36,802 bases of DNA from Candidatus Firestoneibacteriota bacterium (GTDB taxonomy: Bacteria; Oederibacteriota; D2-FULL-39-29; CAIOVX01), in assembly GCA_903915125.1 (NCBI GenBank), contig CAIWRR010000274.1, positions 1 through 36,802 on the forward strand. The letters run 5' to 3'. A program made the translations under genes and the position numbers. A model generated the notes under the pieces. It saw only the letters and a list, made by a program, of their open reading frames with translations, was not told the origin of the DNA and searched no databases. Below, in pieces: positions 2,960 to 35,817 of the stretch; position 1 is the stretch's first letter; every line of letters starts with the position of its first letter.

Positions 2960-3850
2960 TTTAATAAAATCCTCCGGGCGTGACTTCCACCTATTATGCA
3001 CCCAGAACCAGAGCGGCGGATATTTCCTGACATAACTTTCCAGCACTGAAGCCCACTTCTGGGTATTTGACTTGACATCCGCTTCAAAATCGCCCGTTGA
3101 ATCAAGTTCTATCGCCTTTTCAACGACGGCCGTGTGCGTGCCGTCGGGATTCCTTACCATAAAGGTCATCAATAGGGGAGCTCCGGTCTTCATAGCGAGC
3201 ACGGCCGGCCCTTTCTTGGTCCCCGCCAGCCTGCCAAATATGTCCACAAATACGCCGTCGAAAGCGGCGTCCTGATCAGCGAGCAGCCCCACGCCTTCAT
3301 TCTTTTTGAGCGTCCGGATTATCTCTTTTACGGAGTCTCCGGTGTAAACTATTCTCAGCCCGTTAAGGGAGCGGTACTTGTTTATCAATTTGTCCGTGAA
3401 CGGATTTGACTGCGGAAAGGCCACCGCCATGCAGGGTATCAATTTCGGAAAAATCAGGCCAGAGAGCTCCCAGTTGCCGAAGTGCGGAATTATCATTATT
3501 ACGCCTTTGCCTTTAGCCCTCGCCTGCTCAAGGAACTCCTTTCCCTCAACCTTTAAGAATCCCTCGTATTTTGCCCCTTTTATCGCCGGAATATACAGGA
3601 ATTCAGCCAGGGACATCCCGATGTTCTCAAACAGGCCGTCCATATAGGTTTCAATCTCTGCCGCGCTCTTGTCCGGGAAAGACAGGGCCATATTCTGCCT
3701 GGCGAGCGCAACGTGCTTTTTGTCGACGCGTTTCAAGAAGCGCCCGAGGGCCCTGCCCAGGCCCTGCGCGGCCTTCAGAGAAAGCCTTCTTACAAGGAAA
3801 GCGGCCGCGGCAACCGCGAGGAATTGTATGAATTGTCCTGTCCTTTTCAT
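2957..3850 (-). CDS. lpxL: Lipid A late acyltransferase, LpxL/HtrB family
   Basis: 297 aa, the normal length for the LpxL/LpxM lysophospholipid acyltransferase family. An N-terminal hydrophobic segment (about residues 7-22) anchors it to the inner membrane. The catalytic HxxxxE motif is HFGNWE at residues 123-128. The QSNPF and GLLADQDA regions and the C-terminal PPLWFWVHNRWKSRP block are typical of the family. Expected reaction: transfer of a secondary acyl chain from acyl-ACP to the Kdo-lipid A precursor. The start ATG overlaps the lpxK stop by 4 bases (ATGA) and AAAGGA precedes it, so translation is coupled to lpxK. The family assignment is firm; whether it acts as LpxL or LpxM, and its chain length specificity, are not visible. 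Confidence 0.93.
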   Translation of the reverse strand: MKRTGQFIQFLAVAAAAFLVRRLSLKAAQGLGRALGRFLKRVDKKHVALARQNMALSFPDKSAAEIETYMDGLFENIGMSLAEFLYIPAIKGAKYEGFLKVEGKEFLEQARAKGKGVIMIIPHFGNWELSGLIFPKLIPCMAVAFPQSNPFTDKLINKYRSLNGLRIVYTGDSVKEIIRTLKKNEGVGLLADQDAAFDGVFVDIFGRLAGTKKGPAVLAMKTGAPLLMTFMVRNPDGTHTAVVEKAIELDSTGDFEADVKSNTQKWASVLESYVRKYPPLWFWVHNRWKSRPEDFIK

Positions 3851-4890
3851 AATCCTTTAAGCCTCCGCAGCAGCTGCTCTTCCCCCGAAACTATCCTGAC
3901 GCCTATCTTCAGAGAATAGGCCGGAAGTTTTGTTTCGGGCAGGGCGGAGCCCGCAAGCTTGACAGCGTCCTTTTCGGTTGTGATAATCAGTTCGCAGCCG
4001 GAAGCAAGCCTGTCTATCTTTCTGATATCCGCGGCGGAATAATAATGATGGTCCCTGAAGCGTATGGGAAGAATCTTTTCCGCGCCGAGAGCGGACACCA
4101 TCATTTCAAAATATTCCGGATTGCCTACCCCGGACAGCACCGCGACTCTTTTGCCCGATAGCGCCTCGAGCCCGGCCGCTTTTTCTTTGCCCCTGATATT
4201 TACCAGCGCTTCCGGGGCGTAAACGCTCTTTACAACCAAAGCGCCAGGATTGATATCCCTCACTTTCTTTTCAAGCCGGCCGGTGTCCGCCGCATCGCTC
4301 TTTGAAAGAATTATCACATCGGCCGCGCGAAGCGACCGCGCCGGCTCCCTGAGTATTCCCGCCGGAAAGAGCAGGCCGTTCCCGAACGGGTTCAGGGAAT
4401 CAACGAGCACTATGTCCAGATTCCTTGCAAGGGAAAGCCTGCGCTGAAACCCGTCGTCAAGGAGCAGAACTTCCGCGGAATACTTCTCAATCGCGGCGAG
4501 CCCCGCGGAATACCTGTCTTTTGATACCACTACCGGCGCCCCGCCAAGTTCTGAGGCCAGAAGGAACGGTTCGTCTCCGAGCGCTTCCGGGCTCATATGT
4601 TCTTTCGAAAATACAATCTCCCGGGAGCTCTTTCTCGCGTAGCCCCTCGTCAGGACCGCGACACTCCTGTCCTTCAGGACTCCCGCGAGATAGAGGACAT
4701 GCGGCGTTTTTCCCGTGCCTCCGAGCGTGATATTTCCGACGCTTATAACTCTTGCCGGCAACTTTCTTTTCTCAAAGATTGAAAGTGCGTAGCAGAGTTC
4801 TTTAAGCCTGAGAGCGCAGAAATATACAAGCGAGAACGGCAGGAGCAGGAAAAGATATTTCTTGGCAAGCTGGAGCGACGGCTTATTCAA
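3847..4890 (-). CDS. lpxK: Tetraacyldisaccharide 4'-kinase LpxK
   Basis: 347 aa, normal for LpxK. It phosphorylates the 4' position of the lipid A disaccharide precursor at the inner membrane. The N-terminus contains a hydrophobic segment (about residues 12-27) and then VISVGNITLGGTGKTPHV, with the P-loop GGTGKT at 57-62. The LLDDGFQRR motif, which carries the family's catalytic Asp, and ITTEKDAVKL follow. The start is TTG at 4890 in a TTGA overlap with the kdtA stop; AAGGTG lies 6 bases upstream and no in-frame ATG fits the conserved N-terminus better. It sits between kdtA and lpxL in a tightly coupled lipid A/Kdo unit. Identification is very secure. Confidence 0.95.
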   Translation of the reverse strand: MNKPSLQLAKKYLFLLLPFSLVYFCALRLKELCYALSIFEKRKLPARVISVGNITLGGTGKTPHVLYLAGVLKDRSVAVLTRGYARKSSREIVFSKEHMSPEALGDEPFLLASELGGAPVVVSKDRYSAGLAAIEKYSAEVLLLDDGFQRRLSLARNLDIVLVDSLNPFGNGLLFPAGILREPARSLRAADVIILSKSDAADTGRLEKKVRDINPGALVVKSVYAPEALVNIRGKEKAAGLEALSGKRVAVLSGVGNPEYFEMMVSALGAEKILPIRFRDHHYYSAADIRKIDRLASGCELIITTEKDAVKLAGSALPETKLPAYSLKIGVRIVSGEEQLLRRLKGL

Positions 4891-6161
4891 TTCAGCACCT
4901 TTTTTAGCATCTCAATGTTATTGTTCAGCGGGCCTTCCCGGGAAGCTATATAGGCGGCGGCCTGACTGCCCGCGTGCCCGGGTTTGAGCCTCAGTTCGGA
5001 AATAAGGGCCCTGCCAAGCGCGGCTCCGTCAGAAGCTTCAACACCCAGCCCGGCTTCAATCAGCGAGGCCGCAATTTCCCTGTAGTTTTCCGTATGTTTA
5101 CCGAAGAACGGACGCCTTCCGAAATACAGCGGTTCAAGCAGGTTATGCCCTCCGATATCCGCCAGGCTTCCACCGACAAAGGCGCCGCCGCAGAGTTCGT
5201 AGGCCGCGGCAAGCTCGCCCATTGTATCAAGAAGCACAACGTCAACCGGTTTCGCGCCTTTCAGCGCGGACCTTCTTACCGTCGTGAAGCAGGCTGCCCT
5301 GAAAAGCTCCTCAATAGCCGCGTTCTCCTGCATAAAACGCGGGGCAACTATGAAAGTGACATCCCGCTCTTCTTTTTTTACGACAAACATCGCGCCGAGC
5401 AGCTCGCCGGCTTCGCTTTCGTGGACGCTCCCCGCCGTTATGACATGTTTTTTAAGGTAGGGGGCCAGGTCGTTCTTCAGCCACGAAGAGCTGACGGGGT
5501 CTGAAAGGAAAACCTCAAATTTCAGGTCTCCTGTCACGGAAGCCCTGTTGTCCCCCGGGAGGAGCTGCTTCAGCCTTTCCAGGTCTTCAGCGCCCCTCAT
5601 GCCGAAAGCGTCAACCTGCCCGAGCACGCCGCGCATGAATTTTTTCATAAAGAGATAGCGCCCGAATTTCCTGTCGGAGAACCTTCCGTTCACGACCGCT
5701 ATTTTTCCGCCCTGCTTTTTTACCGCGTAAAAAAACGAGGGCCATAATTCCGTTTCGGCGGCAACCAGGAGGACCGGGCGTATCCTTTGAACAACCGGAG
5801 AAATGAAAAACATTATATCGAGAGGCATGTAAAACTTATGCAGCTCCGGGGCGAATTTCTCAAGCATCTTCTTGCCGTTAAGCGTCGTCACCGAAAACAC
5901 GATGTTCATTTCGGGGCGGACGGCTTTCAATTTCCGCGCCAGCGGTATCATGCACTTGCACTCCCCGGAAGAGGCGGCGTGCAGCCAGATAACCGGTTGT
6001 TTTGAAAATACCGCTATAAGTTCCCCGGGATATATTCCGAGCCGCTGAAAGACGCCGTCCCGGACGCGTTCAGAGAAAGCGCAAAGCGCGGCAACGGGTA
6101 AAGCCGCGATAACCGCTGCCAGGCAAAGAACCGCGTTGTATAAGAAGAGGCCTAACGGCAT
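4887..6161 (-). CDS. waaA: 3-deoxy-D-manno-octulosonic acid transferase KdtA/WaaA
   Basis: 424 aa, the usual size for Kdo transferase. It adds Kdo to lipid IVA at the cytoplasmic face of the inner membrane. One N-terminal hydrophobic helix (about residues 5-28) anchors it. VIWLHAASSGE at 57-67 carries the conserved glutamate base (E67), and SVTTLNGKKM, AAETELWPSFF, VNGRFSDRKFGRYLF, AGSVHESE and GGSLADIGGHNLLEPLYFGRRPFFGKH are all family hallmarks. The start overlaps the end of the DUF374 acyltransferase gene by 10 bases, and its stop overlaps the lpxK TTG start. Whether it transfers one, two or more Kdo residues cannot be judged from sequence. Confidence 0.95.
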   Translation of the reverse strand: MPLGLFLYNAVLCLAAVIAALPVAALCAFSERVRDGVFQRLGIYPGELIAVFSKQPVIWLHAASSGECKCMIPLARKLKAVRPEMNIVFSVTTLNGKKMLEKFAPELHKFYMPLDIMFFISPVVQRIRPVLLVAAETELWPSFFYAVKKQGGKIAVVNGRFSDRKFGRYLFMKKFMRGVLGQVDAFGMRGAEDLERLKQLLPGDNRASVTGDLKFEVFLSDPVSSSWLKNDLAPYLKKHVITAGSVHESEAGELLGAMFVVKKEERDVTFIVAPRFMQENAAIEELFRAACFTTVRRSALKGAKPVDVVLLDTMGELAAAYELCGGAFVGGSLADIGGHNLLEPLYFGRRPFFGKHTENYREIAASLIEAGLGVEASDGAALGRALISELRLKPGHAGSQAAAYIASREGPLNNNIEMLKKVLN

Positions 6162-6799
6162 ATTTTTCCGGCTTCCAGAGTCACCCTGTCCATCTCCGCC
6201 TGAAGTTCCATTCTCTTCTCCTCCATCAGCGCTTCATCCGCGTCAGCCGGGACGGACACCGGATTTCCCCAGAAAAAAACGCCCCTGGAAAACGGGAGCG
6301 GGATTATGAAATTATCCCAGCTTTTCAGGACTATCTTTCTTGAGGCGTCAAACCCAAAAGGGTAGACGGGCACGCCTGTCAATTTAGAAAGGACTATAGC
6401 GCCGCCCTTGGCTTCCTGTTTCGGGCCCTTCGGACCGTCCGGAGTAATCGCCGCGGCATGACCTTCCGCCAGTCCCCGCTTCAAGAGGATAAGCGCTTTT
6501 ACCCCTTCCCTGGAAGATGAACCGCGCACAGTCCCGTAGCCCAGCCTGTTCATAACTTTGCTTATGTATTCCCCGTCTTTGCCCATGCTTACAAGGCAGT
6601 TTATGCCGGTATTCCTGTAATAGCACACGGCCATAAGAATGCGGCTGTGCCAGAAAGCGTAGATTGCGCGGGCGGACCTTACTTTTCTCGGCGAAAATTC
6701 ACAGTTGCCCGCCTCCGTTATTCTCATGGTCGAGCCAAGAAGGAGCATAGAAACTCTTACCAAAAACGGCAATATGGACATCAATAACTTTTCTTTCAA
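6152..6799 (-). CDS. DUF374-family lysophospholipid acyltransferase-like protein
   Basis: 215 aa. The sequence has the DUF374/LPLAT pattern: AIYAFWHSRILMAV (His at 51), SMGKDGEYIS, GTVRGSSSREGVKAL and the strongly conserved AITPDGPKGPKQEAKGGAI at about 117-134. The family is related to PlsC-type acyltransferases; genes of this family commonly sit beside kdtA, as here, which suggests an envelope lipid or lipid A role, but no defined reaction should be assumed. An N-terminal hydrophobic segment (residues 5-22) suggests membrane association. The start given is TTG at 6799; ATG at 6781 (MSILPFLVRVSML) is an equally plausible alternative because neither has a strong ribosome-binding site. It follows the Enzyme I gene by only 24 bases. 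Confidence 0.85.
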   Translation of the reverse strand: MKEKLLMSILPFLVRVSMLLLGSTMRITEAGNCEFSPRKVRSARAIYAFWHSRILMAVCYYRNTGINCLVSMGKDGEYISKVMNRLGYGTVRGSSSREGVKALILLKRGLAEGHAAAITPDGPKGPKQEAKGGAIVLSKLTGVPVYPFGFDASRKIVLKSWDNFIIPLPFSRGVFFWGNPVSVPADADEALMEEKRMELQAEMDRVTLEAGKICR

Positions 6800-6823
6800 T
6801 TTTTTTCCGTTTGAGCCGTGTTT

Positions 6824-8566
6824 TCAGCTGCAGAACTTGCAGGCGCCGGTATTTATGGACTTCATGTATTTCTTTACGGCGTTTATATCGTGCATGGAGA
6901 GAACCGCTGCGGCTATCGCCCTCGCGTCTTCCATCTTAATGGTGCGTATAACTTTCTTTACCTCCGGGACCAGTATGGGAGCGGTTGAGAGCTCGTCCAT
7001 TCCGAGGCCTATCAGCAGCGCCGTGAAAGCCGTATCGCTTGCCATCTCCCCGCACATTCCCACCCACTTTCCTTCCGCGTGGGCCGCAGAGGCTATTCTC
7101 TTGATGGAACGGAGTATTGAAGGGTGCAGCGGGTTATACATGTAGGCCAGCTTCTCGTTCACCCGGTCTATCGCGAGCGTGTACTGGATAAGGTCATTCG
7201 TGCCTATAGAAAAGAAATCTACTTCTTTTGCCATAACATCAGCGGTTATGGCGGCGGACGGAATCTCTATCATCGCGCCAAGTTCCACGTCTTTATCAAA
7301 CTCGACACCTTTCTTATCCAGGTCTTCCCTGACCTCGGTGTAGACCGTCATTGCCTGCCGCAATTCTTCCACCGAGGAGATCATCGGGAACATTATTTTA
7401 ATGTTTGCGAGCGTGGAGGCGCGGAGTATGGCGCGCAGCTGCGTCTTGAATATCTCCGGGCGCGCAAGGCAAAGCCGGATCGCCCGAAGGCCGAGAAACG
7501 GGTTCTCTTCTTTGGGAAGGCCGAGGTTGGATAAAAGTTTGTCGCCGCCGACATCCAGGGTGCGGATTATTACTGAGCGCGGCAGGGCAGCTTCCGCGGC
7601 AGCCATATAGGCTCTAAACTGCTCGTCTTCATCGGGAAGGTCGGGCCTGTTTAAGAAAAGGAATTCCGTCCTGTAAAGCCCTATCCCGTTCGCTCCATGA
7701 CGCGCAACCAGCGGCAGTTCATCCTGTATTTCAATGTTAGCTGCAAGATCTATCACGTGACCGTCGAGGGTTTCCGAGGGAAAGTCCTTTAACTTGGCAA
7801 GCTGGGCTTCTTCCTGTATAAATTTCCCGATCTTCTTTTCATAGAGCCTCAGGTCCTCCTGGGTCGGGTTAACGATTACAATGCCTTCGGTCCCGTCAAC
7901 AATGACAGGGTCTCCCGTATTGATCTGCGTGGAAACCGAGCTCAAAGCGACGATCGCGGGAATCTCTAAAGCCCGGGCCATTATGGCCGTGTGGGAAGTC
8001 TTGCCTCCCATATCCGTGCAGAAACCGATTACCTTATCCCTCCGCAGCATTACGGTATCGGAAGGTGTAAGGTCCCTCGAAAACACAATGGACTCGTCGG
8101 TTATATCGGCAAGCGTTTCCCTGCCCTTCCCGATAATGTTGCGGAGCACCCTTCTGCCGATATCCCGTATGTCATTTGCCCTTTCGCGCAGGTACTCATC
8201 GTCTATTTTGGCTATGGAGTCCGTGAAACGCGTTACAGCCGAATGAAAGACATAATCGGAGTTCAGTTTTGTTTCCCTTATCTGCTTCGCGACCTCGGAG
8301 GTCATCGCGGGGTCTTCTAGTATCATGAGGTGGGCAGAGAATATATTTGAATGCTTGGACCCCATGTCGCTGTTCACTTTGAGCTCTATTTCTTTGATTT
8401 CGTTTTTTGTGAGTTCAATCGCCGCATTGAATTTCCTGACTTCGGCCGCGACTTCGGAGTCCTTAAGCGGAACTTTAAGCACGACAAAATCTTCCGCCTG
8501 AAGCGTGAACGCCTTGCCTATTACTATGCCGGGAGAAGCCCCTACGCCCTTAAAGAGTTTTCTCAT
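6824..8566 (-). CDS. ptsI: PTS Enzyme I (phosphoenolpyruvate-protein phosphotransferase)
   Basis: 580 aa, standard Enzyme I length. It takes phosphate from PEP and passes it to HPr in the cytoplasm. The N-terminal HPr-binding/phosphohistidine part begins FKGVGASPGIVIGKA. The active histidine is H192 in GGKTSHTAIMARALEIPA. The PEP-binding barrel shows GIGLYRTEFLFLNR, RTLDVGGDK, NPFLGLRAIR, EIPSAA, FFSIGTNDLIQYTLAIDR and the catalytic cysteine in GMCGEMASD. The start overlaps the HPr stop by 4 bases (ATGA) after a GGGGAG site, so the two are coupled. An unusual feature is the C-terminus, ending GACKFCS, a CxxC pair not part of the usual family ending. It is the last gene of the PTS run before the lipid A genes. 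Confidence 0.97.
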   Translation of the reverse strand: MRKLFKGVGASPGIVIGKAFTLQAEDFVVLKVPLKDSEVAAEVRKFNAAIELTKNEIKEIELKVNSDMGSKHSNIFSAHLMILEDPAMTSEVAKQIRETKLNSDYVFHSAVTRFTDSIAKIDDEYLRERANDIRDIGRRVLRNIIGKGRETLADITDESIVFSRDLTPSDTVMLRRDKVIGFCTDMGGKTSHTAIMARALEIPAIVALSSVSTQINTGDPVIVDGTEGIVIVNPTQEDLRLYEKKIGKFIQEEAQLAKLKDFPSETLDGHVIDLAANIEIQDELPLVARHGANGIGLYRTEFLFLNRPDLPDEDEQFRAYMAAAEAALPRSVIIRTLDVGGDKLLSNLGLPKEENPFLGLRAIRLCLARPEIFKTQLRAILRASTLANIKIMFPMISSVEELRQAMTVYTEVREDLDKKGVEFDKDVELGAMIEIPSAAITADVMAKEVDFFSIGTNDLIQYTLAIDRVNEKLAYMYNPLHPSILRSIKRIASAAHAEGKWVGMCGEMASDTAFTALLIGLGMDELSTAPILVPEVKKVIRTIKMEDARAIAAAVLSMHDINAVKKYMKSINTGACKFCS

Positions 8567-24154: not shown

Positions 24155-26152
24155 CTAATAGACTGCTTTTACTTCGGATTCGGTAAAATAATGGCTCAGT
24201 ATATCCCTGTAACTGAAACCGGCTTTTGCCATACCTGCGGCGCCGTCCTGGCACATCCCAACCCCATGCCCCCAACCCGCTCCATAAACAAAACTTCCTT
24301 CAAATTTTACCATATTGCTGCGAAGGCCCGGAATTATAGACCTGACACGCTCGCCGGTAAATATTTTTTCTCCGTTCTTTGCTTCTTTAATATAGCCGAA
24401 ATTGTCCCTTTTAACAACCATAATTTCCTTTTCAGGTTTATCAAGAATCTTGAACCATCTGTAATTAGAATCCTTTCGGCAGTAGGAGTCCGGACCGGAT
24501 TTTATCCACCGGTCCAGCAGCTCCGGAGTCAAAGGCCAGTTATTGAACAGCCCGCCGTCCGCAACAGCAGGAAAGTCCAAAACGCCCTTGAAGACCTTCA
24601 GAGACTCCGAACTCCAGACATCCTCCACGTTTCTCGTATGTCCGCCGCAGTTAGAGAAGAAAAATGAGGTCACGACGCTGCCGCTGCTGAGAAGCAGCTC
24701 CCCTTTTGTCGCTTCAACGGCCCTGGTGGCAGACTTGCTCTCGCTCCCTACCCCGCTGTACGCCTGGCAGTGCACCTCGGCGCAAACATCCGCATTCGGA
24801 TGCGTCTTCATGCCGATTTTACCGTAGGCGTAGCTTCTTGCCACGACAGCCTGAGCCTTGAGGGCGTCCTCAGCGGCTGAAACGCTGATCTCGGAAGGCA
24901 CAACACTGAACAGATACTCATCCAGGGGAAGCACGTTCACAAGGGAAAGGCCTTTCTCCGAAAATGAGACTTCCAGGTTCCCGCGGAAACTCCGGTCCTC
25001 GTTATTCGACCAGAAGGAACCTTTGTTCAGGGTGACATCGTAAATCGTAAAGGTTTCAGTCCCGCCCGGGTTCTCAAAAAGGACCCGGTCATTGCCTGAA
25101 AAACGTTCCTTTACCAGCTCTTTTCCGTCAGGGTTTTTTATGCGGAATTTTCCGCCGGAAGCATTTACGCGAAACTCCTTCTCGGGAGCAGCCGCGCCGA
25201 TCTTTTTGCCTGAGAGAATAAAATTCACGGCTCCGCCGCACTTAATCCTGATTGAATCAACCCCGGAAAGCAGCAGCACCCTGACAACCGGATTCTTCTC
25301 CCTCCCCGGGAGCAGGCGCACGCGCGGACATTTCTTTTCTTTTCTTCCGGACTCCTGCGCCTTCTCATCGCTCTGACGCTCTGCGACTGGTATCCCGGCC
25401 GCCAGATTCTTCATCCGGGCAGCTACGCCGGGATATTCAGGTTCTATCAAAGAGAAACGGCTCAGCGCTGCGTAGGCTCCGCGGGAATCCCCCCGGGACT
25501 CTTTAATATCTGCTATCTTTAGCTGCAGATAGTAGCGGCTTGAGTCCGATCTCAGCGCCTCTATGTAAAGACCAAGGGCTTTTTCCGCGTCGCCGGAAGC
25601 CTGATACGCATCGGCAAGTTTTTGTTTTACGGCAGCCGAGAACGGGTTCAGTTTAAGCGCTGAGGAAAAACGGGCCTCCGCTTCTGCGGCTTTGCCGGCA
25701 GCTTCCGCGCAACAGCCCGAGAGCACCAGCGCGTAAAATCTTTCAAACTTCTGCTGACCGGCTTCCGGAAGGGTCAACTTCTCCGCTTCCGCTGACGCGG
25801 CTTCGAATTTACCGGCATGGTAAAGGCACAACGCAAGATTTAGCTGCCTGAAATTGTCCTCTTTGAGCTTTAGCGAAGCTCCGTAACACACAGCGGCCTC
25901 GGAAAACCTGCCGGTATCCTTGTAAAGACAGGCGAGATTGGCAAGAACTTCATCGTCATTTTTGATATTGAGGGAAGATTTATACTTTTCTTCAGCCGCT
26001 TTGTAATCGCCGAGATAGTACGAAGCATTGGCCTCCCTGAAACTCAATCCGGCCCTGTCCTCCATCAAGATAGGCTTCGGCGAGCAGGCGGCAAGCAGCA
26101 ATAGCAATAATAGCATGGGTATGAGTATATATTTTTTGCGTTCTGTCAGCAT
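24155..26152 (-). CDS. TPR-SpoIID/LytB-domain lipoprotein
   Basis: 665 aa from ATG 26152. A lipoprotein signal (YILIPMLLLLLLLAAC, lipobox LAAC) is followed by about five to six TPR units (residues 35-230), a beta-rich middle region, and a C-terminal SpoIID domain: VLPLDEYLFSVVPSEIS, ALKAQAVVARSYAYGKIG, HCQAYSGVGSES, FFSNCGGHTRNVEDVW and GWGHGVGMCQDGAAGMAKAG. SpoIID is a lytic transglycosylase acting on denuded peptidoglycan; SpoIID-like proteins are found in many non-spore-formers. An earlier in-frame ATG at 26185 overlaps the tonB stop, but the later one has AAGGA close by and gives a proper signal sequence. The TPR part suggests a scaffold role on the periplasmic side of the membrane. Confidence 0.92.
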   Translation of the reverse strand: MLTERKKYILIPMLLLLLLLAACSPKPILMEDRAGLSFREANASYYLGDYKAAEEKYKSSLNIKNDDEVLANLACLYKDTGRFSEAAVCYGASLKLKEDNFRQLNLALCLYHAGKFEAASAEAEKLTLPEAGQQKFERFYALVLSGCCAEAAGKAAEAEARFSSALKLNPFSAAVKQKLADAYQASGDAEKALGLYIEALRSDSSRYYLQLKIADIKESRGDSRGAYAALSRFSLIEPEYPGVAARMKNLAAGIPVAERQSDEKAQESGRKEKKCPRVRLLPGREKNPVVRVLLLSGVDSIRIKCGGAVNFILSGKKIGAAAPEKEFRVNASGGKFRIKNPDGKELVKERFSGNDRVLFENPGGTETFTIYDVTLNKGSFWSNNEDRSFRGNLEVSFSEKGLSLVNVLPLDEYLFSVVPSEISVSAAEDALKAQAVVARSYAYGKIGMKTHPNADVCAEVHCQAYSGVGSESKSATRAVEATKGELLLSSGSVVTSFFFSNCGGHTRNVEDVWSSESLKVFKGVLDFPAVADGGLFNNWPLTPELLDRWIKSGPDSYCRKDSNYRWFKILDKPEKEIMVVKRDNFGYIKEAKNGEKIFTGERVRSIIPGLRSNMVKFEGSFVYGAGWGHGVGMCQDGAAGMAKAGFSYRDILSHYFTESEVKAVY

Positions 26153-26181
26153 TTTTCCTTCGACGGGCGGAATACAGGAGG

Positions 26182-26922
26182 TCATTTCTTAAGGTTAAAT
26201 TTGAAAGTTATCTTTCCTTCCTGGTCAATCGGCCTGGCCGAGATCGGCAGGGAGTCAAATTTCCATTTCAACATACAACCGGTAACCAGGGAGTCCATAT
26301 CTTTAGAACCGCAGGTCTTTATCAACTTCACATCATTGACATCTCCGCCGGGCTTAACAGTTATCTGAACCTGCACAGCCCCTTCTATCCCCTGCCGCTT
26401 TGCCCATTCGGGGTATCCCGGCATAACCTTGCTGATTATTCCGCGCGATGCGATAGCCCCGGAAATCTCAAGGTTGCCGTTTGCCATTCCCGGGTTTTCG
26501 GTGTCCTCGCCGTAACCGCCGCCCAGCACCGGGCCTTCCAGCGGCCCGTCGGAGTTCTTCATCGCGGATTCATCCATTCCTATGGGAGTTTCCTTGTGGA
26601 GCTTTATAATATCATCGCCGGATTTTTGAACGACCGTCTGCTTTGAAATAACCTGCTTGGTTTTTATTTTCGAAGCTATCTTCTCCGGTTTTGCCGCGAT
26701 TTTACCGCTCTTAATTCCGGTATTCGCGGAAACATCGCCTTTCTGCCCCAGGCCCTTGCCGTAAGGCATCTCGCCGAGCAGGGTCACCTCCGTCAGGTAG
26801 ACGGATTTACCCGTGCCATTGGAAACGACAAACCCTGCAAGCAAAGCGAGCAGTATCCCGTGAAACAGCAGGGATATTAAGAGGGTGCCGGATAAAGTCC
26901 TGTCTTTTGTGAGAGCCGACAT
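26182..26922 (-). CDS. tonB: TonB-family energy transducer
   Basis: 246 aa. One N-terminal transmembrane helix (about 11-33, SGTLLISLLFHGILLALLAG, with the usual SxxxH-type His) anchors it, followed by a Lys/Gly-rich periplasmic linker and a C-terminal TonB domain: MPGYPEWAKRQGIEGAVQVQITV, GGDVNDVKLIKTCGSKDMDSLV, and WKFDSLP. It carries energy from ExbB/ExbD to an outer-membrane protein. The linker lacks the long proline-lysine repeats of E. coli TonB. AGGAG precedes the ATG and it lies 10 bases after exbD. The obvious candidate partner is the barrel encoded upstream at 28096-29664. Confidence 0.93.
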   Translation of the reverse strand: MSALTKDRTLSGTLLISLLFHGILLALLAGFVVSNGTGKSVYLTEVTLLGEMPYGKGLGQKGDVSANTGIKSGKIAAKPEKIASKIKTKQVISKQTVVQKSGDDIIKLHKETPIGMDESAMKNSDGPLEGPVLGGGYGEDTENPGMANGNLEISGAIASRGIISKVMPGYPEWAKRQGIEGAVQVQITVKPGGDVNDVKLIKTCGSKDMDSLVTGCMLKWKFDSLPISARPIDQEGKITFKFNLKK

Positions 26923-28095: not shown

Positions 28096-29664
28096 TTATA
28101 ATTTCACATCCAGACCGGCCGAAAGAAACGCGCCTGTCAGCGCCCTGTCTTTTATAATCTCAGCATTCTGATTCAGCAGGTTGTCTCCGGCTATAAAAAC
28201 GGTGAGCCAGCCCGAAAGCTCTTTTGAAAGTTTCAGCCCGGCAAGCAGGCGGCCAGGCACCGTGCCTGAGTTTGTCTCGCTGTAATTCATCTCGCTCTTG
28301 TACTCAAATGTTGCCGTGAAATTCCAGCCGGAATCAGCATACTCTCCGCGAAGCAGCAAAGCGTGCTGGGGCATGTACGGCACGAATCTTCCGGGAAGGC
28401 CGTTTAGAGTGCTCATAAACGTGTATTTTAGCGACTGCGTGAAATTGGACGATAGCTTCCAGCTCTCGTTAAAATTCATTCCGGCAACCGACACCCCTGC
28501 GATATTAACCGGGCGAAGAATATCCGGCACCGGGGCGGCTTCCGTCTCATAAGTGATAAGGTTTTCAACTTCCCTGCGGAAAATCTCAAGCGAGACCGGC
28601 AAGTCGTTCGTTATCTTATGCTGCAGCCCTGTCGTCAGAGAGAACCAGTCGTTCTCGGAGTTTAGGCTTGCAGGAACATCCATTGGCCGTTGCGCGAATA
28701 GTTCCGAAGCCCGCGGGAACAAAAGCCCCGGGGAATATGACGCGTAGACCGTGGTATTGCCGTCAATGTCCGCGCTCGCCGAAACGGAGGGATTTAACCT
28801 GATCTGATCATACCTGATTCCGGCGTTGAGCAGTACAGGGTTAAGATTGAACTTCGCGGCGGCTGACACGGAGTACAGCTGCCCGAAGAGAGAATCAGTC
28901 CTGAGCTCCGCGTTCACTGAACCAAGTATCGTGTTGTCTCTCCCGGTTATCCTAAAATCTCCCCCCGCAAAGACCGCAAGGAAGTTATCTGCGTAACCTA
29001 TCTTTTCAAGAGTCGTTCTGGCAGCTTTCATGCCGCCCTTCAATTTCAGGCCCTCGGACGAGCTGCCGGACAATGCTATGTCCGCCTCGACCAGATCGTC
29101 GCGATATTCATCCGACGAATAGGCAAGCGACGGAGACGTCCTGAAAGCCGAGCCGTTTTTATAGATAAGAGATATCGCGGCGTCCAGGGATTTTTCAAAT
29201 GAAGCGCTGACATCAAGGTTCAATGTTCCCGCATCGTAACCGTTGTCAGTCACCTGGCAGCGCCTGCTGTCCTTCTCCGCCTTAAGCAGCAGGCTGTACC
29301 TGCCGAAGGTTTCCCCGTAGATCAGCTTTCCATATAGGGACGAAAATGACCCGCACGCGCCAAGCAGCTCAACGAGCCTTGCGCTGCTTTTCCTATTCTC
29401 TCCCAGTTCCGGAGCCGAGCCCTTGCCATTGTCCAGGTAGGGCCCCTTGATGAACTGCAGTTCCATCAGAGGAGTTTCTTTCGGAGGCAGCGGGTAGTTC
29501 TCCGGCAGGAGTTCCTTCTTTTCGCCGCCAACCTTGATTTCGCTCTCTCCGGTAATGACCACATCGGGTAGGACAAAGACCGGCTCGCGTTCTTTTTTCT
29601 CCATTTCCTGCGCGAAAAAGACTGACGGAATAAGCAGGGCTGCCAGGAAGATGATTTTTTTCAT
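28096..29664 (-). CDS. Outer-membrane beta-barrel related to TonB-dependent receptors, no evident plug
   Basis: 522 aa with signal peptide MKKIIFLAALLIPSVFFA. Near the N-terminus, VFVLPDVVITGE (about 29-40) resembles the TonB box/plug start of TonB-dependent receptors. The usual plug of some 130 residues is missing: a linker of about 50 residues rich in Pro and Lys leads directly into amphipathic strands (GSFSSLYGKLIYGETFGRYSLLL onward). The C-terminal half has receptor-barrel hallmarks such as VYASYSPGLLFPRASELFA and NSENDWFSLTTGLQHKI, and it ends AFLSAGLDVKL, like a final outer-membrane strand but with Leu instead of Phe. The start overlaps the TPR gene stop (ATGA). Next genes are exbB, exbD and tonB, so it is the expected client of that motor. 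Transport substrate, if any, is unknown. Confidence 0.85.
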   Translation of the reverse strand: MKKIIFLAALLIPSVFFAQEMEKKEREPVFVLPDVVITGESEIKVGGEKKELLPENYPLPPKETPLMELQFIKGPYLDNGKGSAPELGENRKSSARLVELLGACGSFSSLYGKLIYGETFGRYSLLLKAEKDSRRCQVTDNGYDAGTLNLDVSASFEKSLDAAISLIYKNGSAFRTSPSLAYSSDEYRDDLVEADIALSGSSSEGLKLKGGMKAARTTLEKIGYADNFLAVFAGGDFRITGRDNTILGSVNAELRTDSLFGQLYSVSAAAKFNLNPVLLNAGIRYDQIRLNPSVSASADIDGNTTVYASYSPGLLFPRASELFAQRPMDVPASLNSENDWFSLTTGLQHKITNDLPVSLEIFRREVENLITYETEAAPVPDILRPVNIAGVSVAGMNFNESWKLSSNFTQSLKYTFMSTLNGLPGRFVPYMPQHALLLRGEYADSGWNFTATFEYKSEMNYSETNSGTVPGRLLAGLKLSKELSGWLTVFIAGDNLLNQNAEIIKDRALTGAFLSAGLDVKL

Positions 29665-32597
29665 TTCTTCTTCAACCCCTCCCCGCCTTCATCTGCCGGC
29701 CGGACTTCGTTCGTTTTGTCGGCGGATGGCGGCACAAGTTCCTGAAGCGCCTTCAGCATTTTTGCCGCATTGTCAACCCACTCCTTCTTTTCGCCTGTCT
29801 TAATTATGTCTTTGTAAAGTTCCGCGGCCTTGTCGTATTTTCCTATTTTCTCATAGCACTTGGCGGCCTTGTCCTTGGCGGTAATTTTCCACGTTCCGGA
29901 AGCGTTTTGAACCGAGAGAACCTTCAGGTATTCCGAAGCGGCGGTTTCTGCGTCTCCCTTCGCGAAGAAACAATCGCCTATCCAATACTGGGCCTCCTGC
30001 GCTTTCGCAGGAAAGTTTGTCGTAATAAAACGGTACGCCGCTATTGCCTTGTCAAAAGATTTTAGTTCCTCATATATTCCGGCGAGATCAAGCGCGGCGT
30101 CCCTGGAGAGCGCCGATTTCGGATATTCCCGGAGGACCCTGTCAAACCTTTTTGCCGCCTCATCTTTCTTCTTCGCTTTCCTTAAAGACAGCCCGGAATT
30201 AAAGATAGCCGAGACAAAATATTCGCTCTTGGGATATTTTTCCGCTACCTCGTCATATTCAGCCGCCGCGTCGTCGTATCTTTCCTGGACATAATATATG
30301 TTTGCAATTTTGAAAAGGGCGTTCGGCGCCACCGCGGAAGCGGCAAATCTGTCGGCCGCCATCCTGAAATTTGCAACCGCTCTCCCATTTTCCTTTAACG
30401 CAAGACAGGCTTCGCCTTTTGAATAGAGCGAGTCGGGAATCCTGGTTGACTCGGGGAACAAGGACATGAAGCTGTCAAGCTCATCGACCGCCTCTCTGAA
30501 CTTGCCTCCCTTTATATAATATGCGGCAAGCTTGAACTGCACTTCTTCCGAAAATTCTTCTTTCGGAAATTTCTTCAGGAAAAGCCTGGATATTTCTTCA
30601 ACTTTATCGCTGTCGCCCATGAGGGAATAGCAGTCAAAGAGGCCAAATAGCGCGTCCCTCTCATATGTGGTTGAAGAGTAATCCTTGCGGATTTCCCCGT
30701 AGATATCTATGGCTTTCTGATATTCCTGACGGTTAAACCAGGAAGCCGCCGCCTTAAGCAGGGCGTCCGGAACAAGAAGGCTGTCGGGAAAACCATCCCT
30801 GACTTTCAGGAAGTAATCCGCCGCCTTAGTGAAATTATCCTGCCTGAAATAGGAGAAACCTACCCAGTATACGCTTTCAGCAGTGTTTAAGCCTCCCCAG
30901 ACTTTGATGGCGCCGGCGAAATCATCCAGGTTATAGAGACAGCGCCCAATCTGAAACTTCGCCCTCGCAATATCCCCCCGATCTTTCGTTTTCTCGGTCG
31001 ATTTCTGATAATAGGAGGAAGCGGCGGAATAATCCTTGAGGTTGTAGAAAGATGAACCTGTCTGAAAAAGCGCCTCGAACGCCAGCTCCGCGGCGTTTGA
31101 ATCATCAGCGACGCTTTTAAATCCGGCGATAGCCTGCGTGAATTTTTTCTGAGAATACTTGCACCAGGCAGTCCCGAGCTGCGCCTGCGGTATAAACTTT
31201 GAGGCGGGGTAGGCCGAGATGGCTTTGCCGTAGGCGGCAATGGCGTTGTCATAATCCTTCAGAGCGTAAAATGTTTCTCCGAGGCGAAACTGCGCTTCCG
31301 CAGCCCTCGGGCTCGCGGGGTATTTAGCGAGAAGTGTATTGAAATTTTCCCGCGCGAAGCCGAACAATTTGAGTTTGTAGTCACACCAGGCGACAAAATA
31401 GACAGAGTCCGCCGCGAATTCATTATCAGGGAATTCCCTGTAGAGTTTGTCGTAAATGGTTTTTGCGTCTTCAAGCCTTCCGTTAGCGTAGTAGGAGTTC
31501 CCGGTAAGATAAAGCGAGTTCACTCGAAGCGACGGCGACACCTTCTCTTTATTGTTATTGACGGCGCTGAGGGCCTTGATGGTTTCTGAGTACTTCTGTT
31601 GTTTGTAGTAACACCAGGCGAGTCCGTATCTTGCGCGGTTTACAATTTCCACAGAACCGCCATTTTCGGCCAGGCCCGACAGGTATTTTGCTGCGTTAGG
31701 ATAATTACCAAGCGTAATATTGGTGATTCCCAGCCAGTAGAGCGCTTCGTTCCGAAGCGGGCTCTTCTCAAAGACTGCCAGCAATGAAGCAAAAGCCGAG
31801 TCCGCGGACTGATAATCCTTCAGTTTGAAGTAACATTCGCCCAAACGGTAAGTTGCCGCGTCCGCATACTTGCTCGCGGGCGCCTTTTTAATAAATTCTT
31901 TCAGGGCTGTTATTGCTTCGAAGTATTCCCCGGACTGATAGAGAGATTCCCCTTTCCAGAAAAGCGCCGGTTCGGCAAGCGCGCTTGACGCGTAGGCGGA
32001 ACTCAGTTCCGAAAAAGATCCCGCGGCTTTGTAATAATTTCCCAGCTTGTAATAGCACCAGCCGGCGGAATAGCACGCATAATCGGAGGACGCGTATTTC
32101 CGGAAGGAACGGCTGATAGTTTCATACGCAAGCGCCGCAGCTTCAAAATCCGACGAGTTGAAACAGGCTTCCGCCATCCAGAAATTCGCGTCGGCCGCAA
32201 GATAAGTCTTGGGATTCTTTTCGAGGAGAATCCGGAAGGACTCAGCCGAGCCGACGTAGTCCTTCAGCCTGAATTGGCACTCGCCCACCCGGTACATTAC
32301 CGTGTCGCGGTAGTCAAGGGAACTGTACCGTTCAAGCACGGTCTTGTATTCCGGAATAGCTTTTTCATACTCACCCTGCTTGTAGAAGCATTCGGCGGTC
32401 ATAAAGGCCGCATCTCCGCATTCATGGCTTTCGGGATACAGGGAGATTACTTTTTGAAATTGCTCGACGGCAAAATTGTAATTGGCGTTCTTGTAGAGGC
32501 CGTAGGCAAATTGGTAGAGTTCTGAAGATGTAACCTGGGAAAAGAGCAGCACAGGCAAAAGAACAGAAAGCAATGTAATCAATATCTTTCGGCCCAT
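29661..32597 (-). CDS. Large exported tetratricopeptide-repeat protein
   Basis: 978 aa with signal peptide (MGRKILITLLSVLLPVLLFS, cleavage likely after SQ or so). Almost the entire rest consists of TPR units of the YbgF/BamD-like kind, recurring every 34-38 residues: examples are ADAAFMTAECFYKQGEYEKAI, AYRFITTNFPAKAQEAQYWIG and AAEAQFRLGETFYALKDYDNAI. I estimate more than twenty units. A Lys-rich tail ends the protein. Such TPR proteins act as scaffolds for envelope complexes. It is the first gene of the unit, with a near-consensus promoter 31 bases upstream and AAGGGG before the ATG, and its stop overlaps the start of the barrel gene. An outer-periplasmic location is inferred. Individual function is not known. 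Confidence 0.93.
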   Translation of the reverse strand: MGRKILITLLSVLLPVLLFSQVTSSELYQFAYGLYKNANYNFAVEQFQKVISLYPESHECGDAAFMTAECFYKQGEYEKAIPEYKTVLERYSSLDYRDTVMYRVGECQFRLKDYVGSAESFRILLEKNPKTYLAADANFWMAEACFNSSDFEAAALAYETISRSFRKYASSDYACYSAGWCYYKLGNYYKAAGSFSELSSAYASSALAEPALFWKGESLYQSGEYFEAITALKEFIKKAPASKYADAATYRLGECYFKLKDYQSADSAFASLLAVFEKSPLRNEALYWLGITNITLGNYPNAAKYLSGLAENGGSVEIVNRARYGLAWCYYKQQKYSETIKALSAVNNNKEKVSPSLRVNSLYLTGNSYYANGRLEDAKTIYDKLYREFPDNEFAADSVYFVAWCDYKLKLFGFARENFNTLLAKYPASPRAAEAQFRLGETFYALKDYDNAIAAYGKAISAYPASKFIPQAQLGTAWCKYSQKKFTQAIAGFKSVADDSNAAELAFEALFQTGSSFYNLKDYSAASSYYQKSTEKTKDRGDIARAKFQIGRCLYNLDDFAGAIKVWGGLNTAESVYWVGFSYFRQDNFTKAADYFLKVRDGFPDSLLVPDALLKAAASWFNRQEYQKAIDIYGEIRKDYSSTTYERDALFGLFDCYSLMGDSDKVEEISRLFLKKFPKEEFSEEVQFKLAAYYIKGGKFREAVDELDSFMSLFPESTRIPDSLYSKGEACLALKENGRAVANFRMAADRFAASAVAPNALFKIANIYYVQERYDDAAAEYDEVAEKYPKSEYFVSAIFNSGLSLRKAKKKDEAAKRFDRVLREYPKSALSRDAALDLAGIYEELKSFDKAIAAYRFITTNFPAKAQEAQYWIGDCFFAKGDAETAASEYLKVLSVQNASGTWKITAKDKAAKCYEKIGKYDKAAELYKDIIKTGEKKEWVDNAAKMLKALQELVPPSADKTNEVRPADEGGEGLKKK

Positions 32598-32850: not shown

Positions 32851-33525
32851 CTACTTTCTCGGTTTCAGCTTTAGCTTTGATTCTTTGCTGTATTTTTTTA
32901 TTATATCAACTACTTCCTTCGCAGTGTCCGCCGTCTGGATAATTCCAAGATCGTTTTGCCCGATAAACCCCCTGCCCATCATCTCTTTCTTCAACCAGCC
33001 GAGCAACCCGGCCCAGTATTCCTTCCCCACCATCACCACCGGGAACGGATTAATTTTTTTGGTCTGGATAAGCGTGATGGATTCAAAGAGCTCGTCCATC
33101 GTCCCGAAACCGCCCGGCATTATAACAAAGGCGGTCGCGTACTTCACGAACATGACTTTTCTCGCGAAGAAATACCTGAAGGTAAGATTCTTGTTTAGAT
33201 ACGGATTCGGTTTTTGCTCGAAAGGGAGCTCAATGTTTAACCCGACCGAGAGTCCTTTGTTCTTAAACGCGCCTTTGCTGCCCGCTTCCATTATGCCCGG
33301 GCCGCCGCCCGTGATTATGGAGAACCCTTCCTTCGTCAGGCGCTCCGAGATTTCTTCGGCGAGTTTGTAATATTTTGAATCCGTCTTCACGCGCGCGGAG
33401 CCAAAGATGGAGACGGCGGGAATTACCTTCGCGAGCTCGTCAAAACCTTCTACAAACTCCGAGATAATGCGGAACATCCTCCAATTGTCTTCGTAGGTGA
33501 AGTCATCAAATATTTTCTTCTTCAT
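32851..33525 (-). CDS. LOG-family protein (Rossmann-fold nucleotide 5'-monophosphate phosphoribohydrolase-like)
   Basis: 224 aa, standard for the TIGR00730/LOG family. The fold motifs are SIFGSARVKTDSKYY, ITGGGPGIMEAGSKGAF (GGGPG at 73-77) and the signature PGGFGTMDELFE (PGGxGTxxE, 137-145). Members split base from nucleoside 5'-monophosphates, and in plants and some bacteria make active cytokinins; in most bacteria they are probably nucleotide-salvage or housekeeping enzymes. AGGAG precedes the ATG. It follows the restriction gene with 54 bases between, and a 253-base AT-rich spacer separates it from the TPR gene. It does not seem related to the restriction-modification genes. Confidence 0.93.
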   Translation of the reverse strand: MKKKIFDDFTYEDNWRMFRIISEFVEGFDELAKVIPAVSIFGSARVKTDSKYYKLAEEISERLTKEGFSIITGGGPGIMEAGSKGAFKNKGLSVGLNIELPFEQKPNPYLNKNLTFRYFFARKVMFVKYATAFVIMPGGFGTMDELFESITLIQTKKINPFPVVMVGKEYWAGLLGWLKKEMMGRGFIGQNDLGIIQTADTAKEVVDIIKKYSKESKLKLKPRK

Positions 33526-33579: not shown

Positions 33580-34104
33580 CTATTCAGGAACAGGCAACCC
33601 TAATTTGTTCAAAGGAATATAATTAAAATAGAAATGACACCCCACCGATATTATATAGTCTAACACATCTTTATACTCTGGCTTCCTAAACCAATCATTT
33701 AGCAAATAAACATACTCAACTTCAATATTTGCCCTAGAGAATAGCTTTTGATACTGTTTCTTTTTAAAATCACAAGTTTGTAATTTCTCATCCACCGAGC
33801 CAAAAGTCTCTTGTGATTTACACTCTATGATGAAAAGAGTGTTATTTATTATCACATAAATTGAATCGTCAGGGAGCAACTTTTTTGATATTACCTCTTT
33901 CCATTTTACGCCGGATTTCTCCAGCAGAAGGTATAGCTTATGTTTCTTGAAAATACTAGCAACTTGCTTGTTTTGATAGAAAACATTTCCGCTCGGATCA
34001 ACCTTGTAATCTTTCTGTTTGTTAAGGAAAGTTGACAAATCGGTATTGCCTTCAAAAATCAAGCCAGTTCTTGTATTCGCACCACCCTTTCCGTTTTTCT
34101 TCAT
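33580..34104 (-). CDS. Type II restriction endonuclease, PD-(D/E)XK type
   Basis: 174 aa. The catalytic motif is visible as PDD (78-80) followed by IIECK (92-96), the classic PD...(D/E)xK arrangement with Cys in the variable place. ECKSQETFGSVDEKLQTCDFKKKQY is a conserved-looking block downstream of the catalytic core, and YVYLLNDWF is the usual late strand. The start overlaps the second methylase stop by 4 bases (ATGA), with GGGGGG close by, so it is coupled to it. Together with two methylases upstream, this is read as the cutting subunit of a type II system. The recognition site cannot be predicted from sequence. The gene is clearly AT-rich relative to neighbours. Confidence 0.85.
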   Translation of the reverse strand: MKKNGKGGANTRTGLIFEGNTDLSTFLNKQKDYKVDPSGNVFYQNKQVASIFKKHKLYLLLEKSGVKWKEVISKKLLPDDSIYVIINNTLFIIECKSQETFGSVDEKLQTCDFKKKQYQKLFSRANIEVEYVYLLNDWFRKPEYKDVLDYIISVGCHFYFNYIPLNKLGLPVPE

Positions 34105-34907
34105 TCGCCCCCCTGCTTCAGCATGCTATCTCTAAAAATTGAAACATCCTCATCCTTATTTGGCTTTCTGAAAACAAATAAATGTTCATGCATAATAAGC
34201 AAGAAATCCTTTGCTTGTGAGTTCCAATATCTCGTAGTTGAACAATTATGCTGTAATTTAATTATATCTTCTTTGAGAATAAATCCAACTATCAAGAACC
34301 TCTTCATTACCGAAACTGCCAAGGGAACCATATGCTTACGCCGACGAGTATCTCCCATTAGAATCGCACAATACTTTCCCGGTTTTAGTACCCTGAATGA
34401 TTCCCGTGCGACCTTCTCTATTTCATCACAGAATTTTGGCAAACTACCTAATCTCGACAAATCACCTTCAACATCTTTTACACCATATTTAATGATATTC
34501 AGATATGGCGGGTGTGTAAGGACTAAATCAATGCTTTGGTCCTTCAGGGTACTCAAATCCCGCGCGTCACCGACACTAACATTAGGCTCATGTTGCCCTT
34601 TCTCAGGTTCAAATTTGCAGGCTTCTCTGGCTAACCGAACAACTTCCTGATGGATATCGAAACCAATTCCTTTCCTCTTAAGAGATTTTGCTTCTATCAT
34701 TGTTGTTCCACTGCCAACCATAGGATCCAGGACTGTATCGCCCTCTTTCGAGTATAGCATCATGATATTCCATGGAATTTGCGGAGCCCAATTTCCAGGG
34801 TATTTTGAATTATGCGTCAGGTGTTTATCTCTCTTCGGGAAAGACCAAACAGTTGTAGTTTCAATGGTCTTTGGGTTCATAGTTTGTTCTGTTTTAATCT
34901 CGCGCAT
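34101..34907 (-). CDS. DNA methyltransferase (N4-cytosine/N6-adenine type) with HPPY motif
   Basis: 268 aa. Motif I, DPMVGSGTTMIEA (61-73), precedes motif IV, LVLTHPPYLNIIKYG (129-142), the reverse of the beta-class order. The sequence WAPQIPWNIMMLYSKEGDTVLDP matches a common family of amino-methylases, in which HPPY replaces the usual D/S/NPPY. It methylates an exocyclic amino group of adenine or cytosine in its site. It starts 1 base after the Dam-family methylase gene ends and overlaps the endonuclease gene. Two methylases for one nuclease suggest an asymmetric site with each strand modified by a different enzyme, as in type IIS systems; this is inference. Confidence 0.88.
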   Translation of the reverse strand: MREIKTEQTMNPKTIETTTVWSFPKRDKHLTHNSKYPGNWAPQIPWNIMMLYSKEGDTVLDPMVGSGTTMIEAKSLKRKGIGFDIHQEVVRLAREACKFEPEKGQHEPNVSVGDARDLSTLKDQSIDLVLTHPPYLNIIKYGVKDVEGDLSRLGSLPKFCDEIEKVARESFRVLKPGKYCAILMGDTRRRKHMVPLAVSVMKRFLIVGFILKEDIIKLQHNCSTTRYWNSQAKDFLLIMHEHLFVFRKPNKDEDVSIFRDSMLKQGGE

Positions 34908-34908
34908 T

Positions 34909-35817
34909 TCAGCCCTTGGAATAACTGCTAATTAGTAATTCTTTGACAAGCCCGCGTTTCTCTGCATTGCAATTAATCATTCTTTTCGCACTAACCGATA
35001 CAATGTTTTTATCTATGCTGCCGTAAAGAACTGAGATTTTCTCGCTATACGAATTACTGAGCAGCACATGGCATCCTTTTTCTTTTAGTCTAAAAAAGAG
35101 CCGTGACAATCTTGCTTGATCTCCCGATGTGAAGGCGTCTTTCGTATAGGCAGTAAAGCTGGCGGTCTTGCTGATTGGCTGATAGGGCGGGTCAAAATAT
35201 ACAAAATCTCCTGACTCGGCATATTCAATAGTTTCTTCAAAATCCCCGCTCACCAAAGTTGCATTCTTAAGTGCAATATTTACTGCCTCAAGATTTTCTT
35301 TATCGCAAATACGCGGATTTTTGTAGCGACCAAAAGGCGTATTGAATTGCCCCTTGCTATTGACTCGGTATAAACCATTAAAACAAGTCCTATTTAGAAA
35401 CAATATTCTGGCTGCAGCTTCAACTGAATCGGACGGCTTTGATGCCCGAATTTTGTAATAATTATCCTCATCGTTCTCATATTTATCGCTTTCCAGCTCT
35501 AAAACTAGTTCTTTAAGTTTCTTGCTGCTTTTTATGACCTTGTAGACATTTATTAGGTCATTATTTGAGTCAATCAATATTGCTTTTTTTCCTGCCAATC
35601 TTCCTGTCGAAAAAAGGTGAAAAAACAATGCCCCTCCCCCCACAAAAGGTTCAATATAGTCATTGAACTTTTGTGGCATAGAAAGGACAAGGTCTTTTAG
35701 CAACTGGCTCTTGCCACCGGCCCACTTAACAAATGGCCGAGCAACGATCTCTTTATTGATATTTTTTTTCAAATGCAAGGAAACTCCTTGTAGTTCTAAT
35801 TCCAGGGCATTGTTCAT
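34909..35817 (-). CDS. Dam/DpnM-family adenine-specific DNA methyltransferase
   Basis: 302 aa. It is an alpha-class N6-adenine methylase: FVKWAGGKSQLL (29-40), the SAM-binding motif YIEPFVGGGALFF (54-66), FLNRTCFNGLYRVNSKGQFN, and catalytic DPPY (209-212 in FVYFDPPYQPIS). Dam, DpnM and M.EcoRV belong here; GATC is possible but specificity within the family varies. AGAGGTGG precedes the ATG. It is the first gene of the restriction-modification island, so protection is made before cutting. Codon and base use are plainly AT-richer than the flanking genes, which suggests recent transfer. Confidence 0.93.
   Translation of the reverse strand: MNNALELELQGVSLHLKKNINKEIVARPFVKWAGGKSQLLKDLVLSMPQKFNDYIEPFVGGGALFFHLFSTGRLAGKKAILIDSNNDLINVYKVIKSSKKLKELVLELESDKYENDEDNYYKIRASKPSDSVEAAARILFLNRTCFNGLYRVNSKGQFNTPFGRYKNPRICDKENLEAVNIALKNATLVSGDFEETIEYAESGDFVYFDPPYQPISKTASFTAYTKDAFTSGDQARLSRLFFRLKEKGCHVLLSNSYSEKISVLYGSIDKNIVSVSAKRMINCNAEKRGLVKELLISSYSKG

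Follow-up and report, generated by a model that had tools for sequence, protein, structure and literature searches.

A natural TonB-dependent-receptor-type barrel without a plug, kept in one gene block with a TolQR/ExbBD-type motor, a TonB-type transducer and a long TPR protein

We analysed a stretch of 36,802 nucleotides (the window; contig CAIWRR010000274.1, assembly GCA_903915125.1) from a Candidatus Firestoneibacteriota bacterium. One open reading frame (ORF) of the window encodes a TonB-dependent-receptor-type outer-membrane barrel that has no plug domain, which confirms the first observation made on this DNA in a first-pass annotation. A motor, a TonB-type transducer, a long tetratricopeptide repeat (TPR) protein and this plugless 22-strand barrel stay together as a single gene block across several phyla. 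Judging from genes and models, we propose with a probability of roughly 0.48 that a dedicated force system, driven by protons and standing as a third relative beside Ton and Tol-Pal, uses the barrel to anchor itself in the outer membrane; every contact and function within that system is inferred by us.

The ORF, its signal peptide and the TonB-box-like segment VFVLPDVVITGE after the signal peptide are all present as the first-pass annotation had described them (ORF list), and so is the receptor-type barrel half, with SYSPGLLFPRASELFA and a match to the barrel family PF00593. This match (residues 139-496, 75.5 bits, 1e-20) was the only one that hmmscan returned against Pfam up to E 10; the plug family PF07715 did not match the window barrel even at that threshold. 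Structure prediction of the barrel alone agreed with the claim of a missing plug, since neither of two AlphaFold2 runs gave a plug fold. With a 15-row alignment the mean predicted local distance difference test score (pLDDT) was 72.5 and the predicted template modelling score (pTM) 0.70; with a 43-row alignment the values were 77.2 and 0.72. In both cases the barrel extended from residue 96 to the C-terminus. We counted 22 strands on the modelled barrel, which is short for that number (427 residues in the 43-row model). Because the modelled barrel begins at residue 96, ~56 residues separate the TonB-box-like motif from the first strand, close to the ~50 estimated earlier. The tail is disordered in the models, with pLDDT <50 at residues 16-93 (43-row model) or 1-93 (15-row model).

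The first (15-row) model was used for a fold comparison against solved structures. The best match was BtuB (1nqe; Z 24.3, root-mean-square deviation 3.0, 410 aligned residues, 12% identity), and TonB-dependent receptors made up all of the best 50 rows. Aligned ranges that start near residue 52 fall in the low-confidence tail and are therefore no evidence for a plug. A misread start codon masking an upstream plug was also considered and rejected: upstream of the start the frame is open for just eight residues, and it runs into the TPR gene.

The absence of the plug extends to the relatives. We scanned each member of two sets of plugless barrels with Pfam: A3, with 43 aligned members (34 from the phylum of the window genome and nine from outside), and A4, with 18 more. 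Seven of the phylum's 41 barrels were omitted from A3 as partial, split, broken, of unclear start or a near copy. PF07715 matched in 0/43 and 0/18 members (0/61 together). As a control, the same scan found PF07715 in 7/7 and 15/15 ordinary receptors from the own and other phyla (22/22), and the family is present somewhere in all 45 genomes of the phylum. In a tree of the barrel segment, a single branch parts the 59 plugless from the 22 plugged rows (support 96/99; present in 94% of bootstrap trees). The tree is unrooted, has long branches and contains many rows that depart in composition; because it is unrooted with long branches, we claim the separation of plugless from plugged barrels and not a single origin.

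The genome itself holds three PF00593 and two PF07715 matches. Ordinary receptors on contigs C155 and C18 have both domains, and the window protein has the barrel only. On C155, plug and barrel are fused in one protein, and the PF07715 match on C18 lies within a 481-residue frame that also has a barrel match. A plug supplied by a separate gene was rejected, as neither of the two PF07715 matches lies in the block. A plug concealed in the TPR protein was likewise rejected, with no plug among the best 25 of the 33 families matched.

The block runs on one strand in the order TPR, barrel, TolQ/ExbB, TolR/ExbD, TonB (Table 1). Using profiles of the window genes, we found all five genes in this order and on one strand in 32 of the 41 barrel-bearing genomes of the phylum. 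The other nine have the TPR and barrel genes only (five genomes) or the barrel and motor genes only (four genomes); in eight of these nine the block is incomplete because the contig ends inside it. In G009, no motor genes turned up nearby in the stretch examined; in G006 and G007 they lie ~4 kb further on. The first-pass annotation had reported a 4-base overlap between the stop of the TPR gene and the start codon of the barrel gene, and this is real (29661-29664). The same exact overlap occurs in 29 of 37 pairs from the phylum, counting the window.

Table 1. Positions in the window of the five block genes, the accessory neighbour and the features of the barrel tail
Feature	Position	Strand	Evidence
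Periplasmic TPR protein, 978 aa, signal peptide	29661..32597	-	20 TPR_6 stretches
Plugless TonB-dependent-receptor-type barrel, 522 aa	28096..29664	-	PF00593 1e-20; no PF07715 at E 10
TonB-box-like motif VFVLPDVVITGE, barrel residues 29-40	29545..29580	-	By eye and alignment
Conserved tail, residues 41-96, from motif to first strand, where the plug would be	29377..29544	-	Conservation; pLDDT
TolQ/ExbB-type proton channel subunit, 213 aa	27363..28004	-	PF01618 1.2e-29
TolR/ExbD-type subunit, 138 aa	26933..27349	-	PF02472 1.5e-29
TonB-type force transducer, 246 aa	26182..26922	-	PF03544 1.1e-12, residues 168-244
TPR and SpoIID/LytB-domain protein, accessory neighbour	24155..26185	-	PF08486 2.8e-25; SpoIID_LytB 181.8 bits, cut-off 83.3

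Barrel homologues occur in three other genomes of the genus (76-80% identity) and in the sister family (34-36%), and the plugless form is kept in relatives as distant as 15-36% identity. Some match to the 15-row profile was obtained in 208 of 384 genomes; in many cases what matched was an ordinary receptor, and then just along the second half of its barrel. On reading the loci, the plugless barrel was present in 41/45 genomes of the phylum and was not found in G001, G002, G019 and G021. These four genomes (families f3, f6 and f8) are without the block, yet have plug-bearing receptors.

Plugless relatives occur in at least three other phyla, and thus in at least four with the own phylum. We located 24 loci with a TPR gene and a barrel gene outside the phylum: three in the phylum of G251, four in that of G269, 13 in that of G190 and four in further genomes; motor genes come after the pair at many of them. 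The pair was found in 3/6 genomes in the phylum of G251, 4/4 in the phylum of G269 and 13/19 in the phylum of G190 (counting L086 and L087). The remaining six genomes of the last phylum comprise four with a plugless barrel and no TPR gene in the stretch fetched, one with a barrel fragment only and one with no full-length barrel. L204-L207, which also belong to the G190 phylum, hold plugless barrels that carry a motif of the IIGKDKS type and have no TPR gene of the family in the stretch fetched. In G388 (L192; phylum of G269) a TAG interrupts the barrel frame (3424-5145) and the TPR frame (5504-8514) is split in two; between decay, sequencing error and recoding we do not decide.

The motor subunits score nearest to TolQ and TolR. 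Against NCBIfam, the channel subunit of the window scores 111.9 bits with tolQ and 84.6 with exbB, both below the curated cut-offs, and the second subunit scores 92.9 bits with tolR, above the ExbD models, all again below cut-off. In a tree of TonB proteins, the block TonB forms a clade apart (40 rows, against 14 TonB from elsewhere in these genomes; support 99/99). The block rows of this tree were chosen with a profile built from the block TonB, and several branches are long; for the outsiders, phmmer gave a TonB in 14 of 16 non-cluster stretches, and two were lost. The ordinary receptor on C155 is adjoined by its own TonB gene, so this one genome has two TonB proteins, one beside a plugged receptor and one in the block. 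A single decisive conserved region of the TPR protein was looked for and rejected: the invariant columns (49 in 13 rows, two partial rows excluded) are spread along the protein.

Within the motif LPDVVITGE, P33 is identical in 43/43 rows of A3 and G39 is kept in at least 90%. Distant members have LPEVVIxGE, IPEILITGQ or LPEVxIxGEDKS. An ordinary receptor of the same genome has LDEVVVTGTKT at the equivalent place, and the DVVITG of the barrel resembles its EVVVTG. TonB boxes are short and tolerant, and for this reason the likeness is a strong hint, and no proof, that the tail motif acts as a TonB box. The alignment with the homologues of the genus and the sister family showed that the tail (EPVFVLPDVVITGES...KK(E/D)LLP..YP.PPKETPLME..FIKGPYL) is better kept than the barrel and is the most conserved stretch within the order. 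Conservation past the motif persists within families, which suggests that the tail has a second partner.

Our proposal for how these parts could work together is as follows. The motor would use the proton gradient to pull TonB, whose C-terminal domain would bind the TonB-box-like motif in the barrel tail by strand addition. With no plug available for unfolding, the load would fall on the barrel itself, and hence on the outer membrane. The TPR protein, CpoB-like, would sit at the periplasmic mouth, where it would hold the tail and cover the pore, and it would couple the pull to cell-wall work (some genomes have SpoIID or OmpA-type genes next to the block). Instead of taking up nutrients, the system would then spend energy on linking or constricting the outer membrane. 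The proposal draws on the conserved five-gene order, the TPR-barrel pairs outside the phylum, the missing plug with a retained TonB-box-like motif, the separate TonB clade and the second TonB beside an ordinary receptor, the TolQ/TolR and YbgF/CpoB scores, the lack of OmpA/Pal domains in seven of nine genomes of the order, the SpoIID and OmpA-type neighbours, and flanks that, as far as scanned, hold no uptake gene. A wider formulation, which we offer tentatively and put at somewhat below even odds, is that this is a third class of energised envelope machine, in which a TolQR-like motor and TonB pull a natural plugless barrel held by a CpoB-like TPR protein. Such a machine may represent an extant relative of the transition from Ton to Tol-Pal, and may do a Pal-type job where Pal is lacking.

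The first-pass annotation supposed that an open pore would be harmful and that the TPR protein may close it. The harm is uncertain: a 455-residue FhuA without its plug and large loops is described as a quiet open pore of 2.6 x 3.6 nm in bilayers (PMC10418385). The main rival to the anchor proposal takes up the idea of closure and makes the barrel an energised channel. The TPR protein would be a plug in trans that caps the periplasmic mouth, and TonB would pull the tail and shift the cap so that a substrate passes in or out. This would fit the overlap of the TPR and barrel genes and their staying together where the motor genes are apart (L039, L041 and L042). A plug in trans is physically possible, since a soluble FpvA plug is reported to restore function to a plugless FpvA barrel (PMC10994204), and Oar is described as a TonB-dependent barrel needed for secretion (PMC6434023). 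However, no gene for a substrate, a binding protein or an inner-membrane importer recurs beside the block among the neighbours scanned, and a barrel of 427 residues and 22 strands leaves scant room for large ligand-binding loops. We consider the channel rather unlikely. Pulling or anchoring is no less likely a role than gating, because the barrel gene stands second in a conserved block of five that brings along a motor and a TonB of its own.

The remaining explanations are less probable. Synthase-dependent polysaccharide export is known to pair a TPR scaffold with an open barrel, and the block could by analogy with AlgK-AlgE (alginate) export a polymer or protein through the barrel, energised by the Ton motor. 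Yet the part of the flanks scanned shows no recurrent synthase, polymerase or glycosyltransferase, and the best 50 rows of the fold comparison, all receptors, also speak against export, which we therefore hold to be improbable. Equally improbable in our view is a shrunken plug, in which the mature tail of ~75 residues would fold into the lumen, close the barrel and permit uptake as in ordinary receptors. The conservation of the tail beyond the motif would suit such a role, and PapC is reported to be served by a plug of 76 residues (PMC10418385), but neither the window barrel nor its relatives match PF07715, and the tail is of low pLDDT in both models, although low pLDDT is still compatible with folding inside the barrel. 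Lastly, an internal deletion, an assembly error, a truncation or a decayed receptor in one genome would account for the missing plug and for nothing else. It is refuted by the conservation in 41/45 genomes and in other phyla together with the division of the barrel tree, and we give it next to no weight.

Several results weigh against the anchor proposal itself or limit it. The barrels have diverged, with PF00593 matching just 21/43 members of A3 and 13/18 of A4 at E 1; members without a match were assigned by family profile and gene context. Among 16 short-frame candidates fetched outside the phylum, the TPR gene stood beside the barrel in nine and not in seven. The block is missing from 4/45 genomes of the phylum, which speaks against its being strictly essential, and neighbours beyond the five block genes are not conserved across families. 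Although the best NCBIfam match was tolQ in 6/6 and tolR in 5/6 block members, all these scores are below the curated cut-offs. The TPR protein exceeds the tol_pal_ybgF cut-off (372.8 bits against 90.1), but the score is inflated by repeats (12 repeated stretches in 978 residues). The block TonB carries a TonB_C domain and is no proven TolA; as the C-terminal domains of TolA and TonB are homologous, the domain leaves its identity as one or the other undecided. The block motor may also serve ordinary receptors. Finally, OmpA-domain proteins are found in 38/45 genomes of the phylum, so the block does not simply replace Pal.

Within the order, no OmpA/Pal domain was found in seven of nine genomes, and Tol-Pal proper is therefore missing there where the block is present. 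The own genome gave 0 matches to PF00691, and Pal is also absent from the window block, as is any TolB gene (Pfam scan). The own genome does have TolB_N matches, on contigs other than that of the window (C122 and C261), though it is without an OmpA/Pal match; TolB_N without OmpA/Pal is seen in other genomes of the order as well.

A relative of the SpoIID gene follows TonB in 7/9 genomes of the order, with just its first part inside the stretch read in G006 and G007. Such relatives after TonB were seen at L037, L038, L002, L040, L041 and L042, and not in every locus. In three genomes of genus g19 (L113, L115 and L117), the gene immediately before the TPR gene encodes an OmpA-domain protein; an OmpA gene beside the block was seen in this genus only. 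The other flanking genes scanned were mostly housekeeping genes and included ClpC-type ATPases, UvrD, SmpB, RsfS, RNase HII, S1, a TRCF-type helicase, a thiamin pyrophosphokinase, a LysM protein, an amidase and one sodium/proton exchanger; in the part of the flanks scanned there was no importer, substrate-uptake gene or polymer synthase. Upstream of the TPR gene, the window gene at 32851-33525 (minus strand), which we take to be LOG-type, has relatives (70-95% identity) close to the block in G003, G004, G006, G009 and G010, and is more conserved than the block itself. By eye, three ORFs at 33580-35817 (minus strand) resemble a pair of DNA methyltransferases plus a small nuclease-like protein and may form a restriction-modification set.

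The block is a system of the Ton/Tol kind assembled from known part families. With TonB-dependent transporters such as BtuB and FhuA, it shares the 22-strand barrel, PF00593, the TonB-box-like N-terminal motif, TonB and an ExbBD-type motor. It differs from them in a barrel without a plug, a tail of ~75 residues, an operon with a TPR protein of ~1000 residues and a TonB clade of its own; a recent review describes TonB-dependent transporters as plug-closed barrels (PMC11658791). With Tol-Pal (TolQ-TolR-TolA-TolB-Pal-CpoB), the apparent common features are a motor that scores nearest TolQ/TolR, though under the curated cut-offs, and a putative YbgF/CpoB-type TPR protein in one operon; unlike Tol-Pal, the block has no TolB or Pal, a receptor-type barrel in their place and a transducer with TonB_C, and its TPR protein is nearly four times the length of CpoB (263-residue model). 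CpoB TPRs are reported to bind TolA and to regulate cell-wall synthesis, and TolB to bind TolA as a TonB box binds TonB (PMC7391070). We file the block under neither Ton transporters nor Tol-Pal, because it lacks the plug of the former and the Pal and TolB of the latter.

Other systems resemble it by description. In Fibrobacter succinogenes, FSU_2396 to FSU_2403 comprise OmpA, TPR, TPR, ExbB, ExbD, ExbD and TonB proteins reported in proteomes (PMC6851124, PMC4619616). TPR proteins thus stand beside TonB/ExbB/ExbD and OmpA there, as in genus g19, and the set may be a cousin of the block; however, the accessible parts of these papers name no plugless barrel and do not describe FSU_2399. The Myxococcus Agl-Glt machinery is described as having a TolQR-type motor (AglRQS), the TonB-motif protein GltG, TPR proteins and outer-membrane proteins (PMC3169522). 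To this extent it is like the block, but its outer-membrane proteins are different and Agl-Glt is a gliding complex; against GltC and GltE models, our TPR protein gave general TPR matches only, under the cut-off. Engineered plugless FhuA and FpvA (PMC10418385, PMC10994204) are, as described, likewise receptor barrels minus the plug, but these are man-made deletions, whereas the block barrel is natural, old and conserved. We found no description of a natural plugless receptor-type barrel with such a gene block in the literature, with most subscription papers and all bioRxiv preprints outside the search. A 2025 survey of force transducers mentions TPR-associated vWA (von Willebrand factor A) transducers and PorE in Bacteroidetes, and its accessible part includes no plugless receptor block (PMC12204202).

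A receptor-type barrel lineage in at least four phyla has thus kept a TonB-box-like motif and, mostly, a neighbouring motor, without a plug. The lineage separates the pulling of a barrel from the opening of a plug, and therefore two roles of a Ton-type motor become testable apart. According to one proposal, Tol-Pal evolved out of Ton, an outer-membrane protein serving as early partner, and TolB derives from an outer-membrane protein (PMC12204202); the plugless block bears on this proposed Ton origin of Tol-Pal with an outer-membrane partner.
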